From: Bacteroidota bacterium
GTDB taxonomy: Bacteria > Bacteroidota > Ignavibacteria > UBA10030 > BY39
Assembly (NCBI GenBank): GCA_030682385.1
Contig: JAUXOG010000060.1
Span: forward strand, 1 to 53,830
Reading direction: 5' to 3'
Length of the DNA stretch: 53,830 nt
The notes under the pieces: model-generated
What the model saw: only the letters and a program-made list of their open reading frames with translations
What the model was told of the DNA's origin: nothing
The model's database searches: none
Translations under genes and position numbers: made by a program
Shown: piece by piece, positions 11,001-51,200 of the stretch
Position numbering within the stretch: position 1 is the first letter of the stretch
Layout of the letters: each line of letters starts with the position of its first letter

Positions 11001-11747
11001 CCAGAAGATTCCGTCTTGGGCAAGAAAATTATTCCATTGCATAGCACGGACTTTTACTTCTAAACCGAGTCCTTTGCGTGTCAGGTCGGCCGAGTCGGGA
11101 ACGAAAATAAAAGATGATGAATCGGCGCTGAATACTTTCCAGTCGGTTGCGTTAAATTCTTCATCGGCATTATCATCCATTTTAAAATATGTTTCCTGAT
11201 CGGAATTCATAACTCCTCTGCCGAAATAGCCATTCCATTGTGCATTACCTTGTGCATCAATCCATGTCGGTTGGTCGGGCCAATATGGGGGCCAAGTATC
11301 GCGAATGTTATTGACAGCGACACTTTTACCCAGTTCGTTCTTGTTTGGGTTTGCATAGCCCGGAATCGGCTCAAATCCCCAAAAAGCGCCTCCGCCAGGG
11401 GGTCCATCGCCTCCACCCGGTCGCGTAACGGGACAAATAACAACAGATGTAAAAGTCGTATCTATAATTGTTCCGTCTCTCCGCTTTTTCTTAACGGGGA
11501 CTTCAACAGCTACAAGTGGCGATACATCTCCGACGTATCCGTTGTCGTCGTATTTCCATGCACCGCGAGGACCGATACCATCGGGTTGAGCAATTACACC
11601 CCAATTGCCAAAAACAGTTTTTACACGGTTGCCGTTAAGCGTTCCTGATTTTCGAAATGTCCGGTCGCCACGCTCTTGTGCCAATAAAATTGAATCGCTT
11701 ATTAAAAATAATAGAAGTATTAATAGTATAATTTTTTTCATATTCAT
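8016..11747 (-). CDS. Very large secreted protein with fibronectin III-like segment and T9SS-like C-terminus
   Basis: About 1243 residues from ATG at 11747 (a TTG at 11762 is possible but has no good ribosome site). A signal peptide (IILLILLLFLISDSILLA) is followed by a large N-terminal region with acidic, probably calcium-binding DGIDNDGDGR-type loops (three similar loops). Around residue 650 a fibronectin III-like domain is visible (KPNLTVVAGDGKVTLYWDR ... GYKIYRS ... YYYAVVAYDRGD). The last 80 residues form a beta domain (KIEIYTSRGEHIRTLYHSG ... GVYFYVVDAPEVG ... GKIAVIK) resembling T9SS/FlgD-like C-terminal domains. The gene sits 8 nt from the PorV-like gene and directly after the TonB receptor. 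It may be the lipid- or receptor-associated surface partner of that receptor, but no known family function is recognised. Confidence 0.75.
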   Translation of the reverse strand: MNMKKIILLILLLFLISDSILLAQERGDRTFRKSGTLNGNRVKTVFGNWGVIAQPDGIGPRGAWKYDDNGYVGDVSPLVAVEVPVKKKRRDGTIIDTTFTSVVICPVTRPGGGDGPPGGGAFWGFEPIPGYANPNKNELGKSVAVNNIRDTWPPYWPDQPTWIDAQGNAQWNGYFGRGVMNSDQETYFKMDDNADEEFNATDWKVFSADSSSFIFVPDSADLTRKGLGLEVKVRAMQWNNFLAQDGIFWLYEITNKSKVDYPKVAFGMIVGTYVGIDGTEWNDDVSFFDVKEDLTYSWDYNFSIDPSANPKWQPTPTDVGFVGYAFLESPSNSYDGIDNDGDGRSGSGDFFTELDFLPRVAALSPGNNPNFPANKLVLIDKKTFARTVVDVPTSRTDFVSQGKTYSVAPGDSLKEIINNGFDDDLDGMIDENLEVHYKQIRRKADGTILFEKLNPLKYKNYFTGLGLSNILIDEARDDGIDNDGDWDITTDDVGADGVAGTGDAGEGNGRPDAGEPRFDATDIDESDMIGLTSFEYFVPAGNISMANDANLWQRMAPGFFEVPTNFVNNMAIRGEDGDFIYGSGYFPLPAGKTERFSLALFFGEAPARHQLDTASLYSNLRTMKQIYSNNYNFAKPPEKPNLTVVAGDGKVTLYWDRTSEEKTFDSDLKVNDFEGYKIYRSTEPNFNDIRVISDGQGNPLFDRPLAQFDLKNGISGFFPNDFGKGVKYFLGSDVGIQHSFVDSTVQNGKIYYYAVVAYDRGDVEKNLPPSENTKFIARDATGKITLDINTAFVIPQKPSIGYVPPPSGIQLTKTKGQSEGTVYYNVIDATKIKDGNKYTLKFFDSSMDSVDNNNNWRNHIKNTAGNIIAWRDDVGADGDSMQIDIDGTQGNGKPDVGEPNIDHRDNEEMIPITSYYQVVNNTNPSAPITVINKSPYMHRTPYLPEVKDSDIFDGVTLDFRNKWEIKYDSSQSGWLDKSIANVLTYDIRLYDKTNPRNIKGVATPFDYEIVFFDTYEQWSTSLSTLTGTSFPAKKTNFKIFNITDPQNKKEIKYGFKEPYYPGQINDTLSNNDYIVILDSLSKETITWMISFYGKDSIFHRPTAGDRFIIRIQKPFSQIDEFEFSVTGAKINVQKAKSEIKKVKVVPNPYVSATTQEQPLPTGVTGRGERKITFTNVPVNSKIEIYTSRGEHIRTLYHSGNMFEGEVTWELRTKENLDVAFGVYFYVVDAPEVGVQYGKIAVIK

Positions 11748-11769
11748 CTTTATTTTATTCAATGTTCAT

Positions 11770-24941: not shown

Positions 24942-25018
24942 ATCTTCTAAGTCTTCTGCTGCTTCTTTTTAGCCGCCGGGAAAAGTATGTTGTTCAGGAT
25001 TAAGCGGTAGCCGGGCGA
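24942..25018. repeat. Left copy of 77-bp duplication of a gene 3' end
   Basis: 72 of 77 bases match 28492-28568. Read on the minus strand in the frame of the 487-aa neighbour gene, it encodes exactly the same last 23 residues and stop (SPGYRLILNNILFPAA, then KKKQQKT). All five differences are synonymous. It also supplies the last codons and stop of the R-M gene in a different frame. Confidence 0.9.
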
Positions 25019-28000
25019 GCTAATATTCCCCACTCCTCCATAATTTCTTTTGCTAATCTTTCAGCTATCGACCAGTCGTGAGCTTTGTGGATTGCGTTTG
25101 CAGATAATTGCTCGAATAGATTTTTTTCATATTTATGATATGCCGTTATAGCTTTCTTTACTATTTTTTCATCTTTTGGAATCTTGAGGATTGAGATATC
25201 AGGTTTTGCAAGAAGCAGCGCAAAGTTGGCTTTGTATTCGCTATCGGTTGTAAGAATTACTTTGCCGTTTGTATCTCGAATCTCATAGTTTCCAAAAAAG
25301 TGTTGATAGGAAAGCTGAAGACCTGATGTCGGATAGCGGTCAAATTTAATTTCATCGACATCACATCCATAAAATTCTTCAGGAAATCGCTTGGGTCCGT
25401 TTGGAATACATTCTTCAACTACAGATTTTTTTATTTGATCAAGTGCAAGCTTCACCGTTTCCTTTTGCTGTTTCTTACGCATCTTTGGAAGCTCAAGTCG
25501 CTCTCGGACCATCTCACATAACCCATCGTAAATTTTATCAAGATACTCATCGGGATCTAATCCAAGAGATTTGAGAACTGCAATATCAAGTGATTGACGA
25601 TCGTTTCTTTTTACTTCTTCAAATATTGGCTTGATTATCCTTTTTGAAAGTTGAGATACATTAAAATTTATTTTTGTATTCGGTACCAACATATTTTCGA
25701 CATCTTCTACTGTAAATTCTTTTGCATTACCATTATTCACATCTCGTCCATATGCTTCTAGATGTATTTGATTGAAAAAAGAATTTAGGATTAACAAGAC
25801 ATTTTTATTTTTAGGTTTCACAGAATATAATCTCTTATCCAAACAGAATTTTGATTTGTTGTGAAATGTCAAAAACCTATTTCTTGGTGCAGCTAAATAG
25901 ACTATTTCATCATCAATTACATTATTAATTCCATACCAATATTTTCTACTTGATACAGATTTAATGTCTGGAAATATCACTTTATCACTGTTTACTTGTT
26001 TTTCACCCCATTCTATATATTTTAGTGATCCAACGTGACCTAACTTTTTCAGTTCAGACTTAGATTTATTACAAATAAATATCAAGTCTTTGATATCTTC
26101 TTTTTCTATCAAAATTTTGGGAAATTGTGAAGAATCTTTTATTACCATTTTAAGGTATATTTCTTCAATTTCTCCTTCCCACCTTCGTGCATTCTTACAT
26201 TTCACAAATCCTTTCTTGGTTTTTCCTTTGACTGGTGTCAGGTAAAAGAAATCGTTTATGCCGGTTTTTATTCCGAATCTTACATCTGCAATTTCTTTTA
26301 GCGGGACAAGTTTATTCTTGCAATTTTCTAAAATCTCAAAATACACATCGGGTGCGCGGAGGTATTTTCCCCATTTTGCAAGTTCGGATTTTTCGTTCAA
26401 CTCACGCTCAATGTCCCCCTGCCGTACAATACGGACACGCAGTTCATCATTTTCAAAAGTCGAAATATTCTCTGCAACCTCCTTGCATTCTTTCTGGTAT
26501 TTCGATTCTTCAATTAGATTCACTAAAGAATCTAATTTCTGCCATCGCTGTGTTGACTGAAATTTCAAATCATAGGGAATAATATCCGATAATTTCTTTT
26601 TGAGTTTAACAAAGTGAACATTGTTATCGCTGCGTTTTTTTGCATCGGATTCTTTTTCGAGAACTGTAACAACCGTATTTACGGCGGCTTCCTCGAACCA
26701 CGGCTCAGCCCATGAGGCAATAATCATCTTTATTTTAAAATGGTCGACAAAAAACTGCTTAAGAACCGCACCGTAGGATACATCGAGCCACGAATTGGAA
26801 GTTATAATAGCAAATGAACCATCGCTTTTTAAAAATGTTGCAGTGTGAAGAAATATATAAGCATAAATATCTGCCTGACCCGATAGAGTTAAATCGAGCC
26901 AACCTTTTTCTACTGCCCGCTGAATTGTCTGCGGTGAATTAATGTGAGAAGGTTTAATACCTTTTAAATTGAACAGCTTTGAATAAGTAGAAAAATATTC
27001 TTCTCCAAGCAAGGCGGTTAATTGATTTTTATAACCTTTGAATTCTTTTTCGATAAGTTCCTGTCGGATAAATGGAAAATTTCCGACGAGGGCATCGAAT
27101 TCAGGAAGTTGAAGCTGCACTCGGACACCCGAAGCGCCAGCATAAGAAGGGGGAAAATCGAATGTGTCCCCTTTCCGAACGTCGAATATATCGGTTTTAC
27201 GAATGCGCGGAAAATTATCCAAATCGCCCACATCCTGACGGAATAAATTTATAGTCGAAAGCTCCGCGGGGAATTTTCCAACATCGAATCCCCAAATTTG
27301 ATTTAAACGGTCTTTATGTGTTCCGCGATTTTGAGACAAATATTTTAACCGATCATACAAGCGGACAAGAAATGTTCCTGAACCACAAGTAGGATCGCAA
27401 TACACACCATTGGGTTCGTTGACTACGGTTGCAATCACAAGGTCAACCAAATCCTCACGAGTAAAATACTGTCCAAGATTATGACGTTTTTCAGGATCAA
27501 TTATATCTTCAAATAACTGTCCTATAACATCTTCGGGAAGTTCGCCAAAATGGTATGCACGGAGTTCTGAAAAGAAATCGTAAATAATCGGATATGCATC
27601 TGCTGGAATGCCAAGCTGCTCAATAGGATCTTCCTCGAAAACTGCCTGCCAGTCTTTCTCACGTGCTTTTGAAAATGCAATACGAATTGTTTTGCTTAAA
27701 TCTTTCTCCCCAATATCATCGAGCGATGGTAGATCGGTAAAGTAACGTCGAATGGTTAGATAAAATATAACCTTTGTGATTAACCCATATACTACGTGAT
27801 TAGTGAGAACCTTTGTGTAATCTTCTGTGACAGGAATTCCTTGAACTCTAGCATATTGCCTTATTGTTTCCTTAAAAATCTTTTTATGCTGTGCGTGTTG
27901 AATGAAAGATTCAAAAATAGTGATCAATTTTTCGGTTGTATTCCTGATTAGATTTACAAAGAATACTTTATCGGGAAGGAATTTGTGGGGCTTACCTGTC

Positions 28001-28449
28001 TCGTGAAGATGAAGAAGATTATCGCACAACTTGCGCATTGAAGTTTTGATAAGCGACTGTTTGTCGCCGCGTTTCCATTCTTCTATATTGGATAGTATCT
28101 GTATCGTTTCGGTATCACAAAGTTCAATTCTGGTGCCTACGATTTTGTAAGTTTTAAGGTCTTGAAAATCCCATGTGAAAGCATATTTCACCTTCAAGCT
28201 GTTTGCCTTTTTTTTAAAGCGTTCTAAATTTTCTTTGCCACCAGGTGGTTTTAATTCAAGATAAGAAAACGCTTCACTTGTAGATCGATTCCGCCAGATA
28301 ACAACATCAGCAAAATAGGTTGATGTATCGACTTGAATACCTGTTTCACCAGTAGCTTCTTTGAATGGAAAGCTACCTCGCTTTATAATTTCATCCAGCC
28401 ATTGAGTAATTTTTTGAGTTAACTCTCGCTCGTTAGTTTTGATTTTCAT
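25000..28449 (-). CDS. Type IIG-like restriction-modification enzyme (nuclease plus N6-adenine methylase in one chain)
   Basis: 1149 residues. The N-terminal domain has a PD-(D/E)xK-like nuclease pattern (TYFADVVIW ... FSYLELKPPGG, about residues 45-75). The methylase core has GQYFTREDLVDLVI, the AdoMet motif I DPTCGSGTFLV (about 348) and the catalytic motif as GNFPFIRQE (about 453), where most relatives have NPPF or NPPY. A target-recognition region follows (KEIADVRFGIKTGINDFFYL and beyond), then a C-terminal helical region. One chain would both methylate and cut its own recognition site. The gene plus 42 bp upstream is flanked by a 77-bp direct repeat. Its final residues (ARPATA) and stop lie inside the repeat, so its natural end may have been replaced. 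It appears otherwise intact. Confidence 0.85.
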   Translation of the reverse strand: MKIKTNERELTQKITQWLDEIIKRGSFPFKEATGETGIQVDTSTYFADVVIWRNRSTSEAFSYLELKPPGGKENLERFKKKANSLKVKYAFTWDFQDLKTYKIVGTRIELCDTETIQILSNIEEWKRGDKQSLIKTSMRKLCDNLLHLHETGKPHKFLPDKVFFVNLIRNTTEKLITIFESFIQHAQHKKIFKETIRQYARVQGIPVTEDYTKVLTNHVVYGLITKVIFYLTIRRYFTDLPSLDDIGEKDLSKTIRIAFSKAREKDWQAVFEEDPIEQLGIPADAYPIIYDFFSELRAYHFGELPEDVIGQLFEDIIDPEKRHNLGQYFTREDLVDLVIATVVNEPNGVYCDPTCGSGTFLVRLYDRLKYLSQNRGTHKDRLNQIWGFDVGKFPAELSTINLFRQDVGDLDNFPRIRKTDIFDVRKGDTFDFPPSYAGASGVRVQLQLPEFDALVGNFPFIRQELIEKEFKGYKNQLTALLGEEYFSTYSKLFNLKGIKPSHINSPQTIQRAVEKGWLDLTLSGQADIYAYIFLHTATFLKSDGSFAIITSNSWLDVSYGAVLKQFFVDHFKIKMIIASWAEPWFEEAAVNTVVTVLEKESDAKKRSDNNVHFVKLKKKLSDIIPYDLKFQSTQRWQKLDSLVNLIEESKYQKECKEVAENISTFENDELRVRIVRQGDIERELNEKSELAKWGKYLRAPDVYFEILENCKNKLVPLKEIADVRFGIKTGINDFFYLTPVKGKTKKGFVKCKNARRWEGEIEEIYLKMVIKDSSQFPKILIEKEDIKDLIFICNKSKSELKKLGHVGSLKYIEWGEKQVNSDKVIFPDIKSVSSRKYWYGINNVIDDEIVYLAAPRNRFLTFHNKSKFCLDKRLYSVKPKNKNVLLILNSFFNQIHLEAYGRDVNNGNAKEFTVEDVENMLVPNTKINFNVSQLSKRIIKPIFEEVKRNDRQSLDIAVLKSLGLDPDEYLDKIYDGLCEMVRERLELPKMRKKQQKETVKLALDQIKKSVVEECIPNGPKRFPEEFYGCDVDEIKFDRYPTSGLQLSYQHFFGNYEIRDTNGKVILTTDSEYKANFALLLAKPDISILKIPKDEKIVKKAITAYHKYEKNLFEQLSANAIHKAHDWSIAERLAKEIMEEWGILARPATA

Positions 28450-31837: not shown

Positions 31838-31872
31838 TTTTGTAATCTTTCCCTTTTCTTTGTATATTTTTG
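31838..31872 (+). promoter_or_regulatory. Bacteroidota-type promoter of lon
   Basis: TTTTG (31838-31842) is followed after 22 nt by TATTTTTG (31865-31872), matching the -33 TTTG / -7 TAnnTTTG pattern. Transcription would begin near 31879, which excludes the upstream TTG codon at 31860 as start of lon. Confidence 0.5.
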
Positions 31873-31919
31873 CCGCGATGAATCATCGTGCTACAGCAAT
31901 TCAAAATAGGAAGAAAATA

Positions 31920-34301
31920 ATGAAACCAGAATACACAGATATATTAGATTCAGATGTAATTCCGAAGCAGCTTCCCGTGCTGCCTTTGCGGGATGTAGTA
32001 ATATTTCCGTTTACAATTTTTCCGGTACTTGTAGGACGCGAATCGTCTCTTAAAGCCGCACAAAACGCAAACGAACGGAATAAATACATTTTTCTGACTG
32101 CACAAAAAAGTCCGACAATCGAAGAACCGGGCGAGAATGATATTTACCGCGAAGGAACAGTCGCAAAAATAGTTCAAATATTAAAACTTCCAAACGGTTT
32201 ATTGAAAATTTTAGTGGATGGAATTTCGCAAGCAGTTATCGAAGAGTTTATTCCTAACGACGAATTTCTTGAGGCACGCATTAAACTAATCTCACCGAAA
32301 TACGAAAGCTCTCCCGAAACAGACGCATTCGTCAGGCATATTTCAAGTTTATTCACCGAATACATACATCTCAACAGAAATCTTCCGAGCGAAATTTTAA
32401 TAGCTTACGAAAATATCAAAGACCCGTTCCGTAAAATTTATTTCGTCGCATCGAATATTACACAATCCGTAGAAACGAAACAAAAAATTCTTCAACAGTT
32501 CAATATCAAAGACTTATCATTCGAACTAATCCGATTGTTAAATTCTGAAATTGATATTCTGAAGATAGGCAGGGATATAGATACGAAGGTACACGATAAT
32601 ATTCAGAAAACCCAGCGAAAATTTTTTATACAGGAACAGATTCGAATTTTACAGGATGAGTTGGGCGATGAAGAGATGTCGCCTGAAATGCTGAAGCTGA
32701 AAGACCAGATCGAAGAAGCCATGATGCCTAAAGAGATTCTAGAAAAAGCGATGGAGGAATACCATAAACTCCGTAAAACCCCTCCCCAATCGCCGGAATC
32801 GACAGTTATACGGAATTATTTAGATTGGATGGTGAACGTTCCGTGGCATAAAAAGACAGAAGATAATTTAGATGTAAAGCACGTACAAAATATTTTAGAC
32901 GACGACCATTACGGATTAGAAAAACCTAAAGATAGAATTTCAGAACATATTGCAGTCCTGAATCTTGTGAAAGAGATGAGAGGACAAATTTTATGTTTTG
33001 TTGGACCGCCGGGAGTTGGAAAAACTTCGCTCGGTAAATCGATAGCTCGTGCATTAGGCAGAAAGTTTGTGCGTCTTTCGTTAGGCGGAGTTCGCGACGA
33101 GGCTGAAATTCGCGGACACAGACGAACCTACATCGGATCGATGCCAGGCAAAATAATACAATCGCTCCGCCGTGCCGGTGTGGTAAATCCTGTTATTTTA
33201 ATGGATGAAGTTGATAAGATGAGTATGGACTTCCGCGGCGATCCGTCGGCTGCCTTGCTTGAAGTACTCGACCCCGAACAAAACACAACTTTCAATGATC
33301 ACTATTTAGATATCGATTACGATTTATCGAAAGTAATGTTTATAACTACGGCAAATGTCCGGTATAACATTCCTCTTCCGTTGCAAGATAGGATGGAGAT
33401 TATAGAGCTACCAGGTTATTTGGATTATGATAAGCGCGAAATTGTTAAGCGACATCTGCTTCCTAAACAATTAAAAGAACACGGATTGACCGAAAAAAAT
33501 GTGAAGTTTACAGAAAAAGCTATTATAAAAGTGATACGCGAATATACGCGTGAAGCCGGTGTGCGTAATGTTGAACGTGAAATCGCATCGATTATGAGGA
33601 AAACGGCTAAAGAAATAGTTATTGCACAGCAAAAAGAACCCTCAAGCGATAAAAAAAATGCATCTATAAAAATAGATGAGCAAAAAGTAGAGGAATATTT
33701 AGGTGTGCCACACTTCCGCCAAAGAAAAACTTCAACCGAACGGAAAGTAGGATCGGTTATAGGATTGGCGTGGACAAGTGTTGGCGGTGATATTTTGAAT
33801 GTTGATGCTACAATAATGCCCGGATCAGAAAAATTAACGCTAACAGGAAAACTCGGTGAAGTGATGAAGGAATCGGCACAAGCAGCTCTTTCCTACATCC
33901 GCTCAAACACAAAGTTGATGGGTGTAAACGAAGAATTTTACAAAAATAAAGAAATTCATATCCATTTACCCGAAGGAGCAATCCCGAAAGACGGACCTTC
34001 GGCTGGACTAACAATGGCGATGGCAATGGTATCGGCAGCATCAAACCGTCCTACCCGAAGCGATGTAGCTATGACAGGCGAAATTACACTGCGTGGAAAC
34101 GTAATCGGAATCGGCGGTTTAACAGAAAAAATTCTCGCAGCCCAACGCAGCGGAATTACCACAGTTTTAATTCCATTTGAAAACGAAAAAGATTTAACCG
34201 AAATTCCTGAAAAAGTTAAAAAAGGAATAAAAGTAATTCCCATTAAAAAAATCGAAGAAGCTTTGCCTTATGTGTTCGGAGTCGCAAAGAAGAAAAAATA
34301 A
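31920..34301 (+). CDS. lon: ATP-dependent protease Lon
   Basis: 793 residues from ATG at 31920, chosen because AGGAAG lies 6-11 nt upstream and the likely promoter lies downstream of the alternative TTG (31860). Domains in order: N-terminal substrate domain (LPVLPLRDVVIFPF), coiled region, AAA+ module with Walker A GPPGVGKTSL (about 363) and Walker B VILMDEVDKM, and the S16 protease domain with catalytic Ser in PKDGPSAGLTMAM (about 694) and Lys in GGLTEKILAA, 43 residues on. It degrades misfolded and regulatory proteins in the cytoplasm. It is a true Lon and serves as an internal comparison for the Lon-like protein at 45858. A weak hairpin follows the stop. Confidence 0.97.
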   Translation: MKPEYTDILDSDVIPKQLPVLPLRDVVIFPFTIFPVLVGRESSLKAAQNANERNKYIFLTAQKSPTIEEPGENDIYREGTVAKIVQILKLPNGLLKILVDGISQAVIEEFIPNDEFLEARIKLISPKYESSPETDAFVRHISSLFTEYIHLNRNLPSEILIAYENIKDPFRKIYFVASNITQSVETKQKILQQFNIKDLSFELIRLLNSEIDILKIGRDIDTKVHDNIQKTQRKFFIQEQIRILQDELGDEEMSPEMLKLKDQIEEAMMPKEILEKAMEEYHKLRKTPPQSPESTVIRNYLDWMVNVPWHKKTEDNLDVKHVQNILDDDHYGLEKPKDRISEHIAVLNLVKEMRGQILCFVGPPGVGKTSLGKSIARALGRKFVRLSLGGVRDEAEIRGHRRTYIGSMPGKIIQSLRRAGVVNPVILMDEVDKMSMDFRGDPSAALLEVLDPEQNTTFNDHYLDIDYDLSKVMFITTANVRYNIPLPLQDRMEIIELPGYLDYDKREIVKRHLLPKQLKEHGLTEKNVKFTEKAIIKVIREYTREAGVRNVEREIASIMRKTAKEIVIAQQKEPSSDKKNASIKIDEQKVEEYLGVPHFRQRKTSTERKVGSVIGLAWTSVGGDILNVDATIMPGSEKLTLTGKLGEVMKESAQAALSYIRSNTKLMGVNEEFYKNKEIHIHLPEGAIPKDGPSAGLTMAMAMVSAASNRPTRSDVAMTGEITLRGNVIGIGGLTEKILAAQRSGITTVLIPFENEKDLTEIPEKVKKGIKVIPIKKIEEALPYVFGVAKKKK

Positions 34302-42063: not shown

Positions 42064-43848
42064 ATGACACAAAACAAAAAACTTTTATCTTGGGTAGATG
42101 ACATGGCGCGGATGTGCCAACCATCATCAATCTATTGGTGTAATGGTTCAGAAACTGAATACGACAAGATGGCTGAACTTTTAGTTAAAAATGGAACTTT
42201 TCAAAAACTAAACGGGAAACTGCGTCCAAACAGTTATTACGCAAAATCCGATCCTACCGATGTTGCTCGTGTAGAAGATCGAACATATATCTGTTCTAAA
42301 AACCGGGAAGATGCCGGACCCAACAATAACTGGCACGACCCCGCAGAAATGAAGGCGAATCTTACAAAACTTTTTACAGGAAGTATGAAAGGAAGAACTA
42401 TGTATGTTATTCCTTTCAGTATGGGTCCGCTTGGCTCTAATATCTCTCATATCGGCATCCAACTCACCGACTCACCTTATGTAGTATGCAATATGAAAAT
42501 TATGACTCGCATGGGAACTGAAGTTTTTAAAATTTTAGGCGATGGCGATTTTGTTCCTTGTTTACATTCAGTCGGATACCCACTTGCCGATGGCAAAGCC
42601 GATGTCCCTTGGCCCTGCAACAGCACAAAATATATAGTTCATTTCCCTGAAGAGAGAAGCATCTGGTCTTTCGGTAGTGGATACGGCGGTAATGCACTTC
42701 TTGGAAAAAAATGTTTTGCGCTTCGTATAGCTTCTGCGATGGGTAAAGAAGAAGGCTGGCTCGCCGAACACATGTTGATCGTAGGTGTAACATCCCCCGA
42801 AGGTGTGAAAAAATATTTCGCAGCCGCTTTCCCAAGTGCCAGCGGTAAAACAAATTTAGCTATGTTGACATCGGCGTTACCCGGTTGGAAAATCGAGTGC
42901 GTCGGCGACGACATCGCGTGGATGAAATTCGGTGCCGATGGACGCTTGTATGCTGTGAATCCCGAAGCCGGATTTTTTGGAGTCGCGCCAGGTACTTCGA
43001 TGCACACTAATAAAAACGCATTACTTACATGCAAAGAAAACTCTATCTTTACAAATGTTGGCTTAACACCGGATGGCGATGTTTGGTGGGAAGGTTTAAC
43101 CGAAGAAAAACCAAAAAAATTAACCGATTGGCAGGGAAAAGATTGGACTCCTGAATCACCCAATCCTGCTTCTCATCCTAATGCGAGGTTTACTACACCC
43201 GCAAAACAATGCCCTGTTATCGACCCTGATTGGGAAAATCCCAAAGGAGTTCCAATCTCTGCATTCATTTTTGGTGGAAGACGAGCTAAAACAGTTCCTC
43301 TGGTTTTTGAAACTTTCAACTGGCAGCACGGAGTTTTTGTAGGCTCAGCAGTTGCATCCGAGACTACCGCAGCCGCCGCGGGAGCTGTCGGGCAAGTCCG
43401 CCGCGACCCGTTCGCTATGCTTCCTTTCTGCGGTTATAATATGGCTGACTATTTCAATCACTGGCTTCGGATAGGTAAAAAATCTTCACCCGATAAACTT
43501 CCGAAATTTTTCAATACGAATTGGTTCCGGAAAGACAATAATGGAAAGTTTATTTGGCCCGGCTACGGCGACAACGTACGTGTTCTTAAATGGATTTTTG
43601 AACGAGTGGATGGAAAAGATAATTTTACCGACTCGCCACTTGGGAGAATTCCCAAAAACGGTAGTATGGATTTCGATGGAATGAATATTACCGAAGATGT
43701 TATCAAAGAACTTTTCCACATCGAAAAAGAAGATGGCATAAAAGAAGCGGATGGAATCCTTGAATTTTACAACCAATTCGGAGACCGACTGCCAACCGAA
43801 TTAAAAACCGAACTCCAATCAATGAAAGATAGATTCAATAAGATGTAA
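42064..43848 (+). CDS. pckG: Phosphoenolpyruvate carboxykinase (GTP)
   Basis: 594 residues, the normal length for the GTP-dependent class. Motifs: [13 protein letters not shown] near the N-terminus, [40 protein letters not shown], the P-loop [13 protein letters not shown], the metal site [28 protein letters not shown], and the GTP-binding [14 protein letters not shown] and WFRKD regions. It converts oxaloacetate and GTP to phosphoenolpyruvate and CO2 in gluconeogenesis. The gene has its own leader, a strong GGGGAG ribosome site and a clear terminator, so it is a single-gene unit. Confidence 0.97.
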
Positions 43849-43912: not shown

Positions 43913-44944
43913 ATGCAGACAAAAAATTTTAAACAAGTCATTACATCCTTTCTGCAACCGTTCCCTAAGCCGGATGCTGTGAATGGGTTTGTTCATTTAT
44001 GTCATAAAATGGCAGTTGCATATCTACGCACAAAATTTTTGAGTAATAAGTATAGCGAAAACCGGTTTGGAATAAATATAGACGATTTAGCCCTCGATGT
44101 GATTGCAGATATTTTTGCGCGCGATAATAATGGTAAGTTTGTTGAGATTCATAAATATTTCAAACAGTTTGGTAACCTGTCTGTATTATCCGATGACGAG
44201 TTGTTTGCCGGCTTGCGTCGCTTAGTGTTCAGTGCAACCAATGTGCGATTCTTTAATATATATGGAGAGTTTGACCCGGCATTATCAAAAATTATCCGCA
44301 ATATAAAACTAACACTAAAAGATCACACGTCCGTTAAAGTTATCGTTCATAACGAAGAAAATTTCCTCGCACCCCGGCAGACTGCAAACCTTCTTCTTTC
44401 CCTTCCCTTCATTCCCGAAGAAATATTATCGCCTGAATTTTATGACCGTGTTTCTTCAAAATCATCACTGCGAGATATGCTGACTGCTATCGGAAATGTA
44501 TTGGAAGAACAGAAGAATTATAAAAAGATAGCTTCCCTGACAGAGGTTGCAGTACTCATAAAAGAAGCTTATGCCTCTGACGCCATAAGAAAAATGGGGG
44601 ATGAAGAATTCTCTGCAGAAGAAATAATTTTCAACGACCAAATAAAATCAATTGCTCAAGAAGTTGTTAGTAATTTGAAAACTCAATATTTATCCCGTTA
44701 CATCGAAAAAGAAAAATTATCTAAAATTGAAATTGCGGCTATTTTTAAAGCGACCGAAGAAATACTTATAAATCAATTTTGTTCAGGTAATGGCGACCCG
44801 GCATCGTACTATGCCACTCTTCAAAAACAATTAAGAGATTTAAATAAAGAAATCTATTCCGGAAAATATCGTGTAATCCTCGAATACTTATCAAAATTGG
44901 CAAAAAATCAAATGTCTGATATTCTCAAGGAAGAATTAAAATGA
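43913..44944 (+). CDS. Uncharacterised helical protein, possibly sigma-factor-like; first gene of the Lon-like module
   Basis: 343 residues, no signal peptide, helix-rich. The N-terminal 130 residues contain CHKMAVAYLRTKFL, then NIDDLALDVIADIFARDNNG and DDELFAGLRRLVFSATNVRF. The order and spacing resemble sigma region 2 of ECF-type factors (a helix, then a DLxxDVFxxxF-like motif, then a basic helix), but the match is weak. The C-terminal half (KNYKKIASLTEVAVLIKEAY, AEEIIFNDQIKSIAQEVVSN, LSKIEIAAIFKATEEI) could hold a helix-turn-helix. The two genes that follow encode a small HxxxCxxC protein and a membrane Lon-like protease, the company expected of a sigma factor held by an anti-sigma. The role is inference. 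Confidence 0.5.
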   Translation: MQTKNFKQVITSFLQPFPKPDAVNGFVHLCHKMAVAYLRTKFLSNKYSENRFGINIDDLALDVIADIFARDNNGKFVEIHKYFKQFGNLSVLSDDELFAGLRRLVFSATNVRFFNIYGEFDPALSKIIRNIKLTLKDHTSVKVIVHNEENFLAPRQTANLLLSLPFIPEEILSPEFYDRVSSKSSLRDMLTAIGNVLEEQKNYKKIASLTEVAVLIKEAYASDAIRKMGDEEFSAEEIIFNDQIKSIAQEVVSNLKTQYLSRYIEKEKLSKIEIAAIFKATEEILINQFCSGNGDPASYYATLQKQLRDLNKEIYSGKYRVILEYLSKLAKNQMSDILKEELK

Positions 44945-45013
44945 TAAATTTTCTGCAAAGGGTTGAGTTTGCAACAAGATATAGTGTAAACATACATAAT
45001 TGAGAAAATTAAA

Positions 45014-45853
45014 GTGACAAATATACATATAAACGAAATAGAATTAGAAAAATTGGCGCTCGATACCGTTGAAGGTAACCTGCCGGATATTTCTAAAACT
45101 GATGAGCACCTCAGAACATGTCTCGTGTGTAAACAGAAATATCTGTTTTATAGGGATTTCTACATCAATTTTAAAGATGAACTTAACAAGCCTGAAGACG
45201 ACAGAATAACGCAACTCGTTAATCGCATGTCATTTTCAAACATTATATATCTGAAACCCTATACTGTACAACCCGACCTTGAAAGCGTCGGCGTTGGAAG
45301 AAACAGCTATGTTCTCGCCGCACAGACTGTGGCTGAAGAAGTACTTAGATATAAAACTACCGCCACATTTGCTTCCGAACATGTTCATGCGCTTGTAAAA
45401 ATAAATGAGGACACTGAAAGAAAACTTTATAGCTTATTTGTTTTATCCGAAAATGAAGAACACCGAAGTCATATACTAATTGGCATTGCCGATGGAGATA
45501 GCGAGAAGCTATTGATTCCAACAAACAGAGATGGATATGCAGAGCTGCCATATTCCAATCCTATAAACTGGAGAAATGCCACGTTAATACTTATGACACC
45601 AAGTGAAGTGATTGCGTATGATGATTTAAAAAATAGATCGGGAGAAATGATAAAGGGGTTGTTCAAATATAATTTTAAAACAGAAAAACACCAATTAACT
45701 TTTAACTTTCTGCCTGAGTCAAAAATCTTACCTCACCACATTTTAGTAATTTATGAAGACGAAACCCAGCTTTCTAAACAAATAGAAGGAACAACTATAA
45801 TTTTTACTGTTGATTCCGATAAGAAAATTAAAGAGATAAGATTCTTCTCATAA
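45014..45853 (+). CDS. Small zinc-motif protein, anti-sigma-like N-terminus
   Basis: 279 residues, GTG start at 45014. Residues about 26-40 read TDEHLRTCLVCKQKYLFYRD; H-x3-C-x2-C is the zinc-binding pattern of ZAS/HC2-type anti-sigma factors. The rest is mostly beta-strand (MSFSNIIYLKPYTVQ, HILIGIADGDSEKLLIP, ATLILMTPSEVIAYDD, ILPHHILVIYEDE) and ends IIFTVDSDKKIKEIRFFS; no transmembrane helix is seen. Placed 69 nt after the sigma-like gene and 4 nt before the Lon-like gene, it is a candidate for the regulated middle partner, possibly the protease substrate. No tested homologue is known to me. Confidence 0.55.
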   Translation: MTNIHINEIELEKLALDTVEGNLPDISKTDEHLRTCLVCKQKYLFYRDFYINFKDELNKPEDDRITQLVNRMSFSNIIYLKPYTVQPDLESVGVGRNSYVLAAQTVAEEVLRYKTTATFASEHVHALVKINEDTERKLYSLFVLSENEEHRSHILIGIADGDSEKLLIPTNRDGYAELPYSNPINWRNATLILMTPSEVIAYDDLKNRSGEMIKGLFKYNFKTEKHQLTFNFLPESKILPHHILVIYEDETQLSKQIEGTTIIFTVDSDKKIKEIRFFS

Positions 45854-45857
45854 ATAA

Positions 45858-48254
45858 ATGGCTAATCCGCTTGTAATCGAACAGAATTTTCAGACTCTAA
45901 AACAATCGCTGAAGTTAATTTCCAGCAGCCGATTGCGGATATTGCGGATTATGGAATTCATTGAGGATTTGCTTAATAGTCCCACCTTCTTTCCGGCTTA
46001 TGCGCCTGAACTATTGCCACAGCTTTCTAAATCAATAATTGAAACCGACTTTACCGGAACTAATCTCAACTGCTTAGAACGATGCGTTAAAATACTTGCA
46101 AGCATTGAAAATAATTTCCCTAATCTTGCCCGTTCCGACGGTTCGTCGGAACGAGGTCTCGTTGTGCTGTCGGCACAACGGACAAGCGATGTGGTTTTTA
46201 AGCAGGCACAACAGCACCTAAAAGAAGAATCTGATAAAATACAATCCTGGATAAAGTCTAAAAATGTAGAGGAGTTGGAAGGATATTCTCACAAGAAGTT
46301 TGACGTGGGTTCAGTATGGATGCCGATGGTAGAGCGAGAACAATTTCTCACGGCGGTCGAGCCCTTATTTGCATCACTTCAAAAATTAAACATCGACGCC
46401 GCATTCAGTAATAAAGATACCGGCTTTGACAAACTCCATATCAAACAACTTTCACACAAAGAAGAATCAGGAGAAAGTGATTTACTAAACACAGCCGAAG
46501 CCGCACGTTACCTGCTTGGTAAGTTCGCACATATAAAAGGCGGTAAAAGAGTTGCGATAAATTGCTCATTCAATAATCCAACATTTGTAGAAGGGCAATC
46601 GCTGCAAGCCGGACTTGCTGCCGGTTTATTCACAGAGTTGCTTCGACTTCATCAGCATAAAGAAGAATATGCATTGCGAGATGATGTTGCAATAACAGGC
46701 AGGATAGATAAACACGCTAATTTATTGCCGGTTGACGAAGGTGGATTAAAACTTAAAGTTGAAGCGTGCTATTTTTCGCACATCAAATATCTTATTGTGC
46801 CTAAAGATCAAGCGGGAATTTGCAAAGACGTAATTGGTAAATTAATTTGGGCTCAAGAACAGTCTTCGACTCTCCCGCCAAAAAACGGTGGTATCGCTCA
46901 GACTGAAGGTAATGCTGACCAAACAAAACAAGCTGTCATCCTGAGCGACCCTGAGTTTAACGAAGGGGAGTCGAAGGATGGACACCGTTCGAGAAATTTA
47001 GAAGTAGTTGGCATTTCCAACCTCGAAGAGCTTTTTTACAATCGCCGTTTAACCGACTCGAGGCGCATTTCGATAGCAAAACAAACCGTCAGGAAAGTAT
47101 GGAAACTAAGACGGCCTATCGCGGCAATGGTTATCGTAACTTTACTATTGGTCATCGGAAAAATGTTGTACGGACCGATTGATAAGAATCCTGTAACTTA
47201 TACGGCTGATGGAGAAACGCTTTTCTTAAAAAATATGTACGGTGAAATTGTTGATAAAATTTTTATTGGCAATTTTACTGTCGAAAATATAAATAATAAT
47301 ATTAGAGATGGTTTATCTAATAAGATAGTAAGCCTAATTGATATTAACAGAGATAAAATTAACGAAGTAATTTATACACAAGCATATCGAGACACTCGTA
47401 ATAATATTGTTCAAATATTCTGTAAAGATATAATTAAAGATTCAATATTATGGAGTGTAAACGTTGAGAGAAAATTGAAATTTCCTTATCATCCCTATGT
47501 GAATAGTTATTTATTTCATGTCGGAAATATCAGTGCGGGAGATTATGACAACGATGGGAGACCTGAGATTTACATAAACGCCTGTCATTTTAGTTATTTC
47601 CCTGGATTATTAATGAAGTTGGATGCACTAAGCGGTGAGAAATTAGCGGAATATATTAATATTGGTCAATTTCAACCAATGGAATTTGCTGACATTGATT
47701 CCGATGGTGTGTCTGAGGTAATTTTAGCTGGTGTAAATAACTCTTATGATATGGCTGCAGTTGCGATACTCGATACCCGTTTTATTGAGGGGCATTCACC
47801 AATTAGTAAAAATTATGATATTGAGGAATTCAAACCGGGGTTGGAAAAAGCTTATCTATTAATACCTCGGACGATTGTTGGGAATTACTTCAGAAATGAG
47901 TACCGACATAATAATACGCAAAATATAGATATCAAAAATTCAGAAAAAATGATTGTTATAGGGATAGCAGATTGTCCTCTTCCATCTAATAATAAGAAAA
48001 GGGCAGCTTATTTTGTACAATTGAATTTCGATTTAAGCGTTAAAGATATTGGAACGGGAAATGTTTATGACATATTAGCGAGGCAGCTATATGCGGAAGG
48101 AAAAATTACGCGTCCTGTGGATTATAAATATTTTGATGAATATAAAAAAGAAATCCTCTACTGGGACGGGGATAAATTTGTAAAATATCCTACTTTGAAT
48201 AAAAGGTATCTTGAAGCGGTAGCGGAGCTTGAGAAGGGGAAGGTCAGTAAGTAG
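45858..48254 (+). CDS. Membrane-anchored Lon-like (S16-type) protease with FG-GAP-like C-terminal domain
   Basis: 798 residues. An N-terminal helical region (about 1-180) is followed by a Lon proteolytic-domain fold without an AAA+ module. FVEGQSLQAGLAAGLFTELL gives the catalytic Ser248, DVAITGRIDKHANLLPVDEG aligns with DVAMTGEITLRGNVIGIG of the true Lon in this window, and GGLKLK gives the catalytic Lys300. A transmembrane helix (PIAAMVIVTLLLVIGKMLYG, about 415-435) leads to an exterior part. There, AGDYDNDGRPEIYINA and FADIDSDGVSEVILAG are Asp-rich FG-GAP/VCBS-type loops, typical of calcium-binding propellers. The layout suggests an outside sensor controlling a cytoplasmic protease. Two palindromic repeats are inserted in frame (46131-46180, 46937-46980). 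Confidence 0.75.
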   Translation: MANPLVIEQNFQTLKQSLKLISSSRLRILRIMEFIEDLLNSPTFFPAYAPELLPQLSKSIIETDFTGTNLNCLERCVKILASIENNFPNLARSDGSSERGLVVLSAQRTSDVVFKQAQQHLKEESDKIQSWIKSKNVEELEGYSHKKFDVGSVWMPMVEREQFLTAVEPLFASLQKLNIDAAFSNKDTGFDKLHIKQLSHKEESGESDLLNTAEAARYLLGKFAHIKGGKRVAINCSFNNPTFVEGQSLQAGLAAGLFTELLRLHQHKEEYALRDDVAITGRIDKHANLLPVDEGGLKLKVEACYFSHIKYLIVPKDQAGICKDVIGKLIWAQEQSSTLPPKNGGIAQTEGNADQTKQAVILSDPEFNEGESKDGHRSRNLEVVGISNLEELFYNRRLTDSRRISIAKQTVRKVWKLRRPIAAMVIVTLLLVIGKMLYGPIDKNPVTYTADGETLFLKNMYGEIVDKIFIGNFTVENINNNIRDGLSNKIVSLIDINRDKINEVIYTQAYRDTRNNIVQIFCKDIIKDSILWSVNVERKLKFPYHPYVNSYLFHVGNISAGDYDNDGRPEIYINACHFSYFPGLLMKLDALSGEKLAEYINIGQFQPMEFADIDSDGVSEVILAGVNNSYDMAAVAILDTRFIEGHSPISKNYDIEEFKPGLEKAYLLIPRTIVGNYFRNEYRHNNTQNIDIKNSEKMIVIGIADCPLPSNNKKRAAYFVQLNFDLSVKDIGTGNVYDILARQLYAEGKITRPVDYKYFDEYKKEILYWDGDKFVKYPTLNKRYLEAVAELEKGKVSK
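46131..46180. repeat. Double palindrome inserted in frame in the Lon-like gene
   Basis: Two perfect hairpins lie back to back: CGTTCCGAC/GTCGGAACG (46131-46153) and CGTTGTGC/GCACAACG (46160-46180). They encode RSDGSSERGLVVLSAQR, a stretch unlike the flanking helical sequence. Length and frame keep the gene open. Confidence 0.8.
46937..46980. repeat. CATCCTGAGC-type interspersed repeat inserted in frame in the Lon-like gene
   Basis: CATCCTGAGCG... ends ...GTCGAAGGATG and encodes ILSDPEFNEGESKD, just after the protease domain. It is related to the intergenic copies at 51536-51585 and 52398-52447, which share CATCCTGAGCG and CGAAGGA ends. Confidence 0.75.
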
Positions 48255-48559: not shown

Positions 48560-48901
48560 TTATTTCTTTGCCCGTAACTTGTAAATTGCTTTACCTTCGC
48601 TAACCGCAAGTTTTTTATGCGTAACTCGAAATGATTTACTGAACAGCTCGTCTGATTTCCTTTCCGGTACATTTTTCCCGAGCAACACATCCGGGTCTAT
48701 GTCTGCTCCATTTTCCCATACTATTGTACCGAGTGTTTTGTCAACTTTTAGAGAAGCAAAAAGTTTGTAATTCTGTTTTAGTGGTTCAAATATTTGTCCG
48801 CATAAAAAAGGTTCTAAATTTACAGTCTTAGTGCTTCCATTGCTTAGTTTCAATTTGACGGTGTAGCCGTTTAATATTTTTGCAGAGACAACTCTTATCA
48901 T
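48560..48901 (-). CDS. DUF2442 family protein
   Basis: 113 residues. The DUF2442 hallmark is visible: VKLKLSNGSTKTVNLEPFL, then FASLKVDKTLGTIVWENGAD and IDPDVLLG. A 40-residue basic C-terminal tail (ERKSDELFSKSFRVTHKKLA) extends the usual domain. DUF2442 genes commonly pair with DUF4160 genes in toxin-antitoxin-like operons, as here (9 nt downstream). Biochemical roles of the two are not settled. Confidence 0.85.
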   Translation of the reverse strand: MIRVVSAKILNGYTVKLKLSNGSTKTVNLEPFLCGQIFEPLKQNYKLFASLKVDKTLGTIVWENGADIDPDVLLGKNVPERKSDELFSKSFRVTHKKLAVSEGKAIYKLRAKK

Positions 48902-48910
48902 ATAGAAAAT

Positions 48911-49132
48911 TTATTTCAATGGTTCAATAAGTTTTAGTGTATAGCCGCGCCTTGCTCTATTCCAATTTAGTTCAAGCTCACTTCGGTGTAATATTGCCCA
49001 CTCGAGGACCAAAACCAATGCACGATTACGTAGCTTTCCCTCTATGATTTCAAGCGTGTCTATAGATATTTTCACTTCCTGACCGGAATATATTGCAATA
49101 ATAATACCGTAGAATTCGCTTATCCTTGGCAT
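48911..49132 (-). CDS. DUF4160 family protein lacking its signature segment
   Basis: 73 residues. The start MPRISEFYGIIIAIY and the end ISIDTLEIIEGKL, RALVLVLEWAILHRSELELN and LIEPLK fit DUF4160. Between them, SGQEVK stands where the family has about 20 residues including the N-P-P-H-F-H motif. The loss is in frame, so the gene stays open but lacks the residues most likely needed for activity. It precedes DUF2442 in the usual order. It could be a degenerate toxin-antitoxin partner. Confidence 0.75.
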   Translation of the reverse strand: MPRISEFYGIIIAIYSGQEVKISIDTLEIIEGKLRNRALVLVLEWAILHRSELELNWNRARRGYTLKLIEPLK

Positions 49133-49212
49133 GGTTAATTATAAATAAATACCAAATTAATTACAACTAACTTGGTCGGAAAAATGCAACGGATTTTTAA
49201 ATCTGTGTACAT

Positions 49213-49379
49213 CCCTGCCTGCGCCTGCCCGCTGCAGGCGGGGCAGGCAGGCGTGTGCTATTAGACTGGGCTGTCTATATTGCGCTCAGTGAATAATGAA
49301 TCCGCCTGCGTTCCCGAAAACGGAACTTCCGCTTGCTCCCGCAAAGGCGGGATTCAGCGGACGAGTCGGCGGACAGGTT
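49213..49379. repeat. GC-rich palindromic repeats between toxin-antitoxin genes
   Basis: CCTGCCTGCGCCTGCCC...GGGGCAGGCAGGCG (49214-49252) forms a strong hairpin. A second block (49298-49379) runs from AATCCGCCTGCG to CGGCGGACAGGTTA and belongs to the AACCTGYCCGCCG family. The second block ends at the stop codon of the nucleotidyltransferase gene. Confidence 0.75.
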
Positions 49380-49725
49380 ACGCTATTCTTATACCATTCG
49401 TCATAGCTTCGTAAGGAATAAGATTTTGCTTAGTAAAGTCTTTAGGATTGTATGCGAGCGCAGAAATGCGGAGGTCAATTTTGTAACGTAATTTTGCTAA
49501 TCGTAAGCTTTCCTCAAATCTTGTTTTTCGGAAATCAGATGAGACTACAACGATATCGATATCACTGTCTTTATGCGAGGTTCCCTTTGCAAAAGAACCA
49601 TACAAATAGGCCTTTATAACGACAATCTTATTTTTCTGAAGTTCTTTTACGAATTGCTTTGCAATTTTTATTGCTTCAGTAGTTTTAGGATTTTGGTTCG
49701 TGTTGTTCTTGTTTTTTTTATGCAT
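49378..49725 (-). CDS. MNT-domain nucleotidyltransferase (HEPN/MNT antitoxin type)
   Basis: 115 residues. The minimal nucleotidyltransferase signature is intact: AYLYGSFAKGTSHKDSDIDI, that is GSx10DxD, followed by the VVVS strand and a later conserved Asp in YKIDLRI. In HEPN/MNT toxin-antitoxin pairs this protein is the antitoxin and adenylylates the HEPN toxin. Its upstream partner is only a fragment (49668-49826), which overlaps the start of this gene by 58 nt. The stop codon lies at the edge of a GC-rich repeat. Confidence 0.85.
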   Translation of the reverse strand: MHKKNKNNTNQNPKTTEAIKIAKQFVKELQKNKIVVIKAYLYGSFAKGTSHKDSDIDIVVVSSDFRKTRFEESLRLAKLRYKIDLRISALAYNPKDFTKQNLIPYEAMTNGIRIA

Positions 49726-49826
49726 GATTCTGCTAATTGTTTCGTTGCCAATTTAAATAATTCAAACTTCTCGTCTGGATAACGTGCTTCTATGACGAAG
49801 CGATTCAATAATTCTAAAAATTCTTT
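49668..49826 (-). pseudogene. C-terminal fragment of a HEPN toxin
   Basis: An open frame without a start codon (preceded by TGA at 49829-49827) encodes 52 residues: KEFLELLNRFVIEARYPDEK and FELFKLATKQLAES, ending IKKTRTTRTKILKLLKQ. The RYPDEK(F) and KLATKxxAE pattern is the distal part of HEPN proteins that pair with MNT proteins. It is fused out of frame to a truncated DUF5615 gene, and its N-terminal helices are gone. Confidence 0.7.
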
Positions 49827-49971
49827 TCAATGAGATAGCTTGGCGTAAATGTTCCTCAGCGGTTTTTCCAAGCATTCCAATGTCCCTCGCGGTGATAGCG
49901 TCGATATTGCGGCTCTTCAACAATTCGCCTAATAGAACCGAAACATCTTCATCGAGATAGACTTGTACCAC
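49762..49971 (-). pseudogene. Truncated DUF5615 (PIN-like) toxin gene
   Basis: 69 residues. The N-terminal part matches DUF5615: VQVYLDEDVSVLLGELLKSR, IDAITARDIGMLGKTAEEHL and RQAISLKR, with the early Asp residues of the PIN-like active site. The expected continuation (a second acidic strand and NRRDF-like loop) is absent. From about residue 51 the frame reads through HEPN-derived DNA out of frame (IFRIIESLRHRSTLSRREV). The deletion joins DUF5615 and HEPN genes near 49826. It overlaps the DUF433 gene by 23 nt. Confidence 0.75.
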
Positions 49972-50224
49972 GCAATTCCTCTGGGATAGAATTACTCTTT
50001 ATAAAAAAATCAACCTTTTCTTTATGGTCTTCATAATAACTTAAAGCGTCGAAAACTTGTGCCAAAGTAATATGAGGAATATTTAGAATTATCTCTTCAG
50101 GTTGAGCGCCCATCAACCAAAGTTCAGCAACAGCACGGACTGCAACGCGTGTTCCTTTTATAATTGGTTCATTAGTTTTTGGTTTCAAAGCAATATAAGT
50201 ATGTTCAGTAATAGTTTCTTCCAT
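49949..50224 (-). CDS. DUF433 family antitoxin
   Basis: 91 residues. DUF433 hallmark: PIIKGTRVAVRAVAELWLMG, then QPEEIILNIPHITLAQVFDA and LSYYEDHKEKVD. The domain carries a helix-turn-helix and is usually the antitoxin beside a DUF5615 PIN-like toxin, exactly the pair found here. With the toxin truncated, it may persist only as a repressor or relic. It overlaps the DUF5615 start by 23 nt. Confidence 0.85.
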   Translation of the reverse strand: MEETITEHTYIALKPKTNEPIIKGTRVAVRAVAELWLMGAQPEEIILNIPHITLAQVFDALSYYEDHKEKVDFFIKSNSIPEELRGTSLSR

Positions 50225-50398
50225 CGTAAAGTTCCTTCAATTTCTATCAAATAATACAAAGTTATTGATGAAAAAGCAAAACGAGAATCAACATTGTAAG
50301 TCGACAAAAGTGAAATGTTGACCAACGGAAGAAGCTGGAAAAATGAGGTGTGTAGTACTATTTTTTCCCACTCAGTGAATAATGATTGAAGAATAACA

Positions 50399-50449
50399 AA
50401 AAACTCAACCCCCTAACAACTTTGTTTTTTATGAGATGGGGGATGAGTT
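50399..50449 (-). terminator. Intrinsic terminator of the HEPN/MNT operon
   Basis: On the minus strand AACTCATCCCCC pairs with GGGGGTTGAGTT (one mismatch) around a 24-nt loop, then five T residues. It begins at the HEPN stop codon. Confidence 0.7.
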
Positions 50450-50916
50450 CAAAAATCTGTTTCGAAAAGTGTATCGGTATAGCTTTCGACAGCGATTACT
50501 GTCGTTAGAAGGATTGGAGAGTATTTTAGAATACTCTGAAACAGAGTGTTCAAATCCTCGTTTACATATTCGTGAGCGATAAGATTCCTTAACTCCCTAA
50601 TCTCCTTGAAAATTAAGGCAGATGTAATAATACCTCGTTTTTCTGCACGGTTGAGTTTATCTATCAACGTGCCGGGTTCTTCCAACAAGATGGCATCTAT
50701 CAAACCGAATACTTTCTGTGTTAACAAGTCGCTCGTCCGGGCAAAACGTGATGTTAGGGCATCGAATGCTTCAAGTTCTTGTATGGAATAATCATTTTTA
50801 TTGCCGATGGCTCTACACTTATCCACGGAATACGAGAGAAGGTTTGCGGATTTCTTCAGAGATACGATTTTATTTTTCAGTTCAGCCGCCAACAATTTTT
50901 GCTTTTCTGTTTTCAT
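50449..50916 (-). CDS. HEPN-family toxin (HepT-like)
   Basis: 155 residues, all helical. The active-site motif Rx4HxY is present as RNLIAHEY in KEIRELRNLIAHEYVNEDLN, near residue 115. Preceding helices (YSIQELEAFDALTSRFARTS, DLLTQKVFGLIDAILLEEPG) fit HepT-like proteins. The family cleaves RNA and is silenced when the partner MNT protein adenylylates the motif Tyr. Its start overlaps the MNT gene by 4 nt. Both parts look intact. Confidence 0.85.
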   Translation of the reverse strand: MKTEKQKLLAAELKNKIVSLKKSANLLSYSVDKCRAIGNKNDYSIQELEAFDALTSRFARTSDLLTQKVFGLIDAILLEEPGTLIDKLNRAEKRGIITSALIFKEIRELRNLIAHEYVNEDLNTLFQSILKYSPILLTTVIAVESYTDTLFETDF

Positions 50917-51200
50917 ATATGCACGCCCTCCATTTTTATCAATTCCGCGAATGGGCTAAGATTGTCTGCTTTCTGGCAGACCAAATCAATTTTTTGATCG
51001 CCCAAGTTTTCTTTCAATAATACTTTAATCGTGAGAATATTTTCTACTGGTATTTCGTTCTCGGAAATTACCAGAATATCTATATCGCCCCCTTTTGCAA
51101 TATCGTATATTTTAGAACCAAAAATATACACTTCGGCGTCGGGGATTAATCCGAGAATTACCGATTTAACAATTTCAATTTCTTTCTTTAATAATCTCAT
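50913..51200 (-). CDS. MNT-domain nucleotidyltransferase antitoxin (MntA-like)
   Basis: 95 residues. Signature VYIFGSKIYDIAKGGDIDIL with the two metal Asp residues (spacing GSx9DxD, one shorter than the usual x10), then the third Asp in QKIDLVCQKAD. The overlapping downstream HEPN gene is the probable toxin, which this enzyme would modify and inactivate. It overlaps a small upstream ORF by 4 nt. Confidence 0.87.
   Translation of the reverse strand: MRLLKKEIEIVKSVILGLIPDAEVYIFGSKIYDIAKGGDIDILVISENEIPVENILTIKVLLKENLGDQKIDLVCQKADNLSPFAELIKMEGVHI

Follow-up and report, generated by a model that had tools for sequence, protein, structure and literature searches.

A membrane-anchored Lon-like protease encoded beside an anti-sigma-type protein: a candidate envelope signalling module in Bacteroidota

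Among described systems, the one nearest in logic to the locus reported here is CalpL/CalpT/CalpS, a type III CRISPR-linked set of Lon protease, anti-sigma factor and ECF sigma factor (PMC11417357, PMC12751052). Cleavage of CalpT by CalpL is thought to lead to degradation by Clp (PMC11417357). Such wiring, in which a Lon-like protease frees a regulator by cutting its inhibitor, has so far been known only from this CRISPR defence system. In the RseA/DegS/RseP system and in RsgI intramembrane proteolysis, an outside signal results in anti-sigma cleavage and in an XAA-type end readable by ClpXP (PMC10202637, PMC12203970); N-terminal fragments of RsgI anti-sigma factors that carry such an XAA end are broken down by ClpXP (PMC12203970), and RseA is handled along the same lines (PMC10202637). 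Class I anti-sigma domains (ASDI, zf-HC2), finally, are defined by a motif across helices 2 and 3, and zinc-free members are common among them (PMC7406223).

The locus analysed here occupies positions 43913-48254 of the window, i.e. of the whole stretch of 53,830 nucleotides that was analysed (contig JAUXOG010000060.1 of a Bacteroidota bacterium). As in CalpL/CalpT/CalpS, three genes encode a Lon-type protease without AAA+, an anti-sigma-type protein as its probable substrate and a regulated partner, and signal-triggered cleavage is the shared proposed logic. The sensor of CalpL/CalpT/CalpS, however, is a cytoplasmic SAVED domain binding cA4, whereas here it is an outside FG-GAP region on a membrane helix; the partner there is the ECF sigma factor CalpS, whereas P1 is without sigma profile match; and several protease genes can serve one pair here. 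The trio would work like CalpL/CalpT/CalpS and like regulated anti-sigma proteolysis, yet falls outside the former, having no SAVED domain and no recognisable ECF sigma factor. The profile search of this genome gave no match to SAVED, with the control search silent as well, and the P3 profile reaches CalpL (7qda) at E=0.13. The first-pass annotation had proposed a CRISPR-free, membrane-sensor analogue of CalpL/CalpT/CalpS; this is partly supported, namely by the conserved trio, the anti-sigma-type P2, the intact dyad, the membrane anchor with its FG-GAP exterior and the lack of a SAVED sensor, while no search recognised P1 as a sigma factor. Full-text searches for an anti-sigma factor with FG-GAP and Lon, or with a Lon-like protease, whose coverage leaves out most subscription papers, returned no description of this module.

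On balance, we favour the reading that the locus is an envelope-to-transcription signalling module in which the protease cuts P2 at a VLAA motif and thereby frees P1. Its features are as follows (positions in the window).

43913-44944, + strand: gene 1, P1, 343 aa; candidate sigma-like partner, helical, its family unnamed
45014-45853, + strand: gene 2, P2, 279 aa, GTG start; soluble anti-sigma-like protein with zinc-finger domain, linker and beta-sandwich domains
45014-45232, + strand: P2 residues 1-73; anti-sigma-type domain, ligands His5, His32, Cys36 and Cys39
45284-45334, + strand: P2 residues 91-107; linker with pLDDT<50, holding the conserved VLAA motif
45311-45322, + strand: P2 residues 100-103 (VLAA); proposed protease site and latent XAA degron
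45350-45850, + strand: P2 residues 113-279; predicted beta-sandwich, weak FNIII/Ig-like fold matches
45858-48254, + strand: gene 3, P3, 798 aa; membrane-anchored Lon-like protease with FG-GAP exterior
46311-47057, + strand: P3 residues 152-400; Lon S16 proteolytic domain without AAA+
46599-46601, + strand: P3 Ser248 codon, catalytic; conserved in 54/54, invariant in A1, A3 and A12
46755-46757, + strand: P3 Lys300 codon, catalytic; conserved in 54/54
47109-47171, + strand: P3 residues 418-438; single membrane helix, N-in/C-out by charge
47196-48197, + strand: P3 residues 447-780; outer beta domain of FG-GAP-like type, with homology to the exterior found in the two-gene modules

The membrane-anchored Lon-like protease

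According to the list of open reading frames, the three genes share the + strand and are separated by gaps of 69 and 4 bases. As a single sequence, the third protein, P3, matches Lon_C at E=6e-4 and FG-GAP_3 at 1.6e-5, both slightly short of the Pfam cut-offs, and a profile built from nine P3 homologues matches the archaeal LonB 1z0e at 2.5e-8 in addition to other Lon proteases. The AlphaFold2 model of P3 (pLDDT 88.7) corresponds to Lon protease domains with a Foldseek probability of 1.00 and TM scores of 0.75 (6wys) and 0.70 (8dvh). Ser248 and Lys300, which make up the Ser-Lys dyad expected of a Lon S16 peptidase domain, are identical in all 54 homologues, which reach down to about 20% identity, and G246, S248, T280, G281 and K300 are invariant across 21 diverse rows with identities down to 16-20%. 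Dyad, proteolytic fold, T-G motif and GxS motif are shared with LonA and LonB (S16), whereas P3 lacks AAA+ (no AAA match in Pfam) and the Lon substrate-binding domain and carries a helical N-terminal domain and an outside FG-GAP part instead. The window also contains a gene for a true Lon, complete with AAA+, at 31860-34301.

The helix at residues 418-438 is preceded by seven K/R residues and followed by one, which gives an N-in/C-out orientation and thus places the protease inside and the FG-GAP part outside. Sequence and fold together establish P3 as a protein with one membrane helix, an FG-GAP region outside and a Lon-like Ser/Lys protease inside. What had been noticed from the letters of the DNA, namely three close same-strand genes at these coordinates, the last encoding a Lon S16 core without AAA+, a Ser248/Lys300 dyad, a transmembrane helix and an FG-GAP exterior, was borne out. 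Compared with RseA and RsgI, the anti-sigma-type protein is soluble here; with a cytoplasmic Ser/Lys protease built into the membrane protein, no site-1 or site-2 protease would be needed.

The anti-sigma-type protein and its partner

In P2, the H32-x3-C36-x2-C39 motif and His5 are all invariant in 35 aligned homologues, of which nine are soluble P2s from the window's own clade and the other 26 are fused. The model of the N-terminal region consists of four helices (8-20, 26-35, 37-58 and 63-73), with the Hx3Cx2C motif spanning helices 2 and 3, the arrangement by which ASDI/ZAS domains are recognised; the anti-sigma-type motif described in the first-pass annotation is thereby confirmed. With the ASDIs, P2 shares this motif position, the extra N-terminal His and the four helices, and both families contain zinc-binding as well as zinc-free members (PMC7406223), the zinc ligands being gone in many Lon-linked P2s from more distant genomes. 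The Pfam family zf-HC2 does not match P2 itself, and 19 of the 35 family members match it, at best with 1.5e-3. Unlike in ASDIs, the gene that P2 always adjoins, P1, is no recognisable ECF sigma factor, and the protease form adds a beta-sandwich C-terminal region and the LAA linker.

P1 is predicted with high confidence to be a helical protein. Searches of Pfam, NCBIfam, PHROGs and PDB, the last by sequence and by fold, returned nothing usable as a known family; matches to Microvir_H (0.03) and kinesin light chain (0.4) were rejected as noise. Although the first-pass annotation had made its reading depend on a sigma-like fold of the 343-aa protein, none was found: Pfam and NCBIfam made no Sigma70_r2 or r4 call (two family members reach just 0.02-0.05 to sigma models), no sigma factor occurs among the 50 PDB fold matches listed, hhalign probabilities against seven, then 25, ECF sigma factors from this genome and its relatives were 0.4-1.7%, and ECF HMM scores were no better than those of shuffled sequences, bar one non-colinear match. 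Likewise, the C-terminal half contains no region 4-like HTH signature, and upstream of 65 P1 genes no shared promoter motif rose above shuffles.

The predicted helices 20-43, 56-68 and 94-120 could nevertheless correspond to those of sigma region 2, and the most conserved one (D58, D62, F68) has region 2.2 shape. The region 2-like pattern noticed earlier is visible by eye, but not significant: the three sigma-2 helices thread best at residues 23, 55 and 96, where the predicted helices lie, with p about 0.095 (0/60 shuffles in a first round, p=0.095 with 2000), and the threading is not used as support. P1 and P2 were also modelled as a single chain with the in-frame intergenic stops read as glycine, a modelling device that gives no interface score. 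We infer the sigma-like identity of P1 from its linkage to an anti-sigma-type domain; P1 may be a divergent sigma factor or another protein held by an anti-sigma-like domain. In the latter case, the protease switch would be the same and P1 would be some other effector or regulator, inhibited by a recruited domain. The absence of a sigma profile, PDB sequence or listed fold match and of the HTH signature speaks for this alternative, which we nonetheless consider rather unlikely, given that this class of anti-sigma domains owes its name to sigma factors and has been studied with them (PMC7406223) and that the shape of the D58/D62/F68 helix and the place where the threading lands, the latter not significantly, point the other way.

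A conserved linker motif and the proposed route of release

Between the anti-sigma and beta domains of P2, the structure model contains a stretch with pLDDT <50 (residues 91-107), and within it a short motif is conserved across 31 protease-linked P2s (A103 in 30/31, L101 in 27/31 and A102 in 24/31). In information content, these LAA columns stand near the top of the whole protein; the linker around them is unconserved. The pattern [LF]AA is found in 23 of the 31 proteins versus 1.6 expected from shuffles, and in seven of eight held-out P2s; changed motifs occur in several Lon-linked P2s (L111, L121, L122, L125, L127, L134, L140 and L142). Among 31 fused two-gene proteins, in contrast, [VIRM]LAA occurs in two, both times within the membrane helix, and in none outside it. 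Judged by these alignments, the [VI]LAA motif of soluble P2 tracks the protease form. It also resembles the XAA degrons read by ClpXP after cleavage of other anti-sigma factors, and ClpX is present. Because of this tracking and this resemblance, the conserved [VI]LAA of the soluble P2 linker, which is new here, is proposed as the putative site of cleavage by P3; the conserved residues fit a cut in the middle protein.

The favoured mechanism would then run as follows. P1 would be the regulated output, most likely as a very divergent sigma-like factor, and would be held by the N-terminal anti-sigma domain of P2, as domain type and gene linkage suggest. The protease of P3 may be switched on by a ligand outside the cell or when the FG-GAP parts cluster; it would then cut the P2 linker at the conserved VLAA and so part the beta domains from the anti-sigma domain. 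With an ssrA-like -LAA now at its end, the released fragment could be degraded by ClpXP, which would free P1. The two-gene sister form described below does without a Lon domain, its anti-sigma domain being part of the membrane protein. Against this mechanism count the failure of every search to recognise P1 as a sigma factor, the missing shared promoter motif, the altered LAA motifs and lost zinc ligands of Lon-linked P2s, and the LAA kept in one Lon-free genome.

Alternatively, the Lon domain might spare P2, with the LAA linker serving as a docking site from which a shape change releases the P1-P2 pair, or with another substrate being cut. A conserved short linker motif can indeed serve docking as well as cleavage, and CalpL binds CalpT before cutting (PMC12751052). 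One Lon-free genome (G104) also keeps LAA, whereas in the two others that have P2 and no Lon protein, one P2 lacks the motif and one is cut short ahead of it, in line with cleavage at VLAA. Full conservation of the dyad in 54 proteins, however, means that selection maintains proteolysis, and apart from P1 the unit has no other conserved gene than P2. We therefore regard this alternative as quite improbable compared with cleavage of P2 at VLAA.

Fused and protease forms across the phylum

Two architectures exist: either a single protein fuses the anti-sigma domain to membrane helix and FG-GAP region, or a soluble P2 is combined with a P3 of Lon domain, membrane helix and FG-GAP region. The same genome holds two paralogous loci of the former kind, each with P1 followed by one HxxxCxxC-domain/membrane helix/FG-GAP protein, and both architectures are seen in several classes of the phylum. 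P1 is carried by 36 of 60 relatives. A zinc-finger gene follows directly downstream on the same strand in 42 of the 43 loci found via P1, nine of these 42 having a P3-type gene next, and in the single locus without adjoining zinc finger P3 lies two genes on. On a P1 tree of 65 rows, the architecture label needs 3 changes versus 22 when shuffled. As the sister form fuses the finger to helix and FG-GAP region, the form with the protease can be seen as one version of a membrane anti-sigma module. P3 and the two-gene anti-sigma proteins have homologous FG-GAP exteriors, and the two-gene modules show, as independent support, that finger and FG-GAP exterior belong to one signalling unit.

In 395 genomes of the phylum, the Lon/FG-GAP protein (counted at E below about 1e-9) was detected in 38 and P1 in 53, the latter in all 38 Lon genomes (hypergeometric 4e-41, with the relatedness of the genomes uncorrected). 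A lack of co-occurrence in other genomes, which had been set beforehand as a point on which the reading would fail, is ruled out by these counts and by the 42 of 43 P1 loci with a zinc-finger gene. A profile scan retrieved two named relatives, an Ignavibacteriae MAG and a genome of an uncultured Chlorobi. P1 genomes without P3 contain, by a wider Lon profile, ordinary Lon only. P1 lies within five genes of the Lon gene in 41 of 54 cases, and although the other 13 sit away from it, as might be the case for a protease of general envelope quality control whose operon just happens to include a sigma/anti-sigma pair, such a role is very improbable in view of P1 in every Lon genome and the homologous exteriors.

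More broadly, we tentatively suggest that the phylum may hold widespread CRISPR-independent, one-component transmembrane proteases in which an extracellular FG-GAP sensor directly controls a cytoplasmic Lon-like cut in an anti-sigma protein, at its built-in LAA degron, and the release of an unrecognised sigma family. If so, Lon-like sigma release would be a general envelope-signalling design in this phylum rather than a CRISPR speciality, with a transmembrane receptor protease replacing the site-1/site-2 protease chain. It would also imply a possible new sigma-like family missed by current profiles and an exact, testable cleavage site, and the natural swapping of modules, between fused and protease form and with several protease sensors per pair, would afford a clear evolutionary comparison.

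For the lone Lon genes in the genomes checked, P1 is encoded elsewhere, mostly with an adjoining P2. In some loci (L110, L112 and L128), a single P1/P2 pair is accompanied by Lon genes numbering two to four, a sign that more than one sensor may feed the same output.

Spread of the fused module and of P2-type genes

The fused zinc-finger/TM/FG-GAP module, which pairs P1 with a single protein lacking the Lon domain, was also found in genomes G076, G092, G104, G377 and G404 (L198-L209). Since these lie beyond the order of the window, the fused form is no local invention. Genes of the P2 type (anti-sigma-like) are present in three genomes without a Lon/FG-GAP protein:

L210 5235-6059 (G161), lacking the LAA motif, the proposed P3 cleavage site
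L203 6008-6232 (G192), truncated (74 aa)
L201 3287-3805 (G104), intact

Gene neighborhoods of the modules

A single P1/P2 pair can be accompanied by two to four nearby Lon/FG-GAP genes (L112 5598-12688, L110 3132-7758 and L128 3479-17348), the L128 array being interspersed with an apparent transposase-like gene and an apparent ATPase gene.

Directly upstream of the window module lies a GTP-type phosphoenolpyruvate carboxykinase gene (42064-43848), and an apparent ATP-type gene (L045 6799-7998, G000:C139) directly precedes one paralogous module; both were assigned by sequence reading.

Other genes of the window

For the 1248-aa protein encoded at 8016-11762 (minus strand), no Pfam match was obtained at 1e-5. 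Downstream of P3, a group of small minus-strand genes (48560-51200), in which a 155-aa gene without match adjoins one of two nucleotidyltransferase-domain genes, resembles toxin-antitoxin type cassettes.

25000-28449, minus strand, large protein with N6 DNA methylase/Eco57I restriction-modification domains
49378-49725, minus strand, nucleotidyltransferase-domain protein
50913-51200, minus strand, nucleotidyltransferase-domain protein
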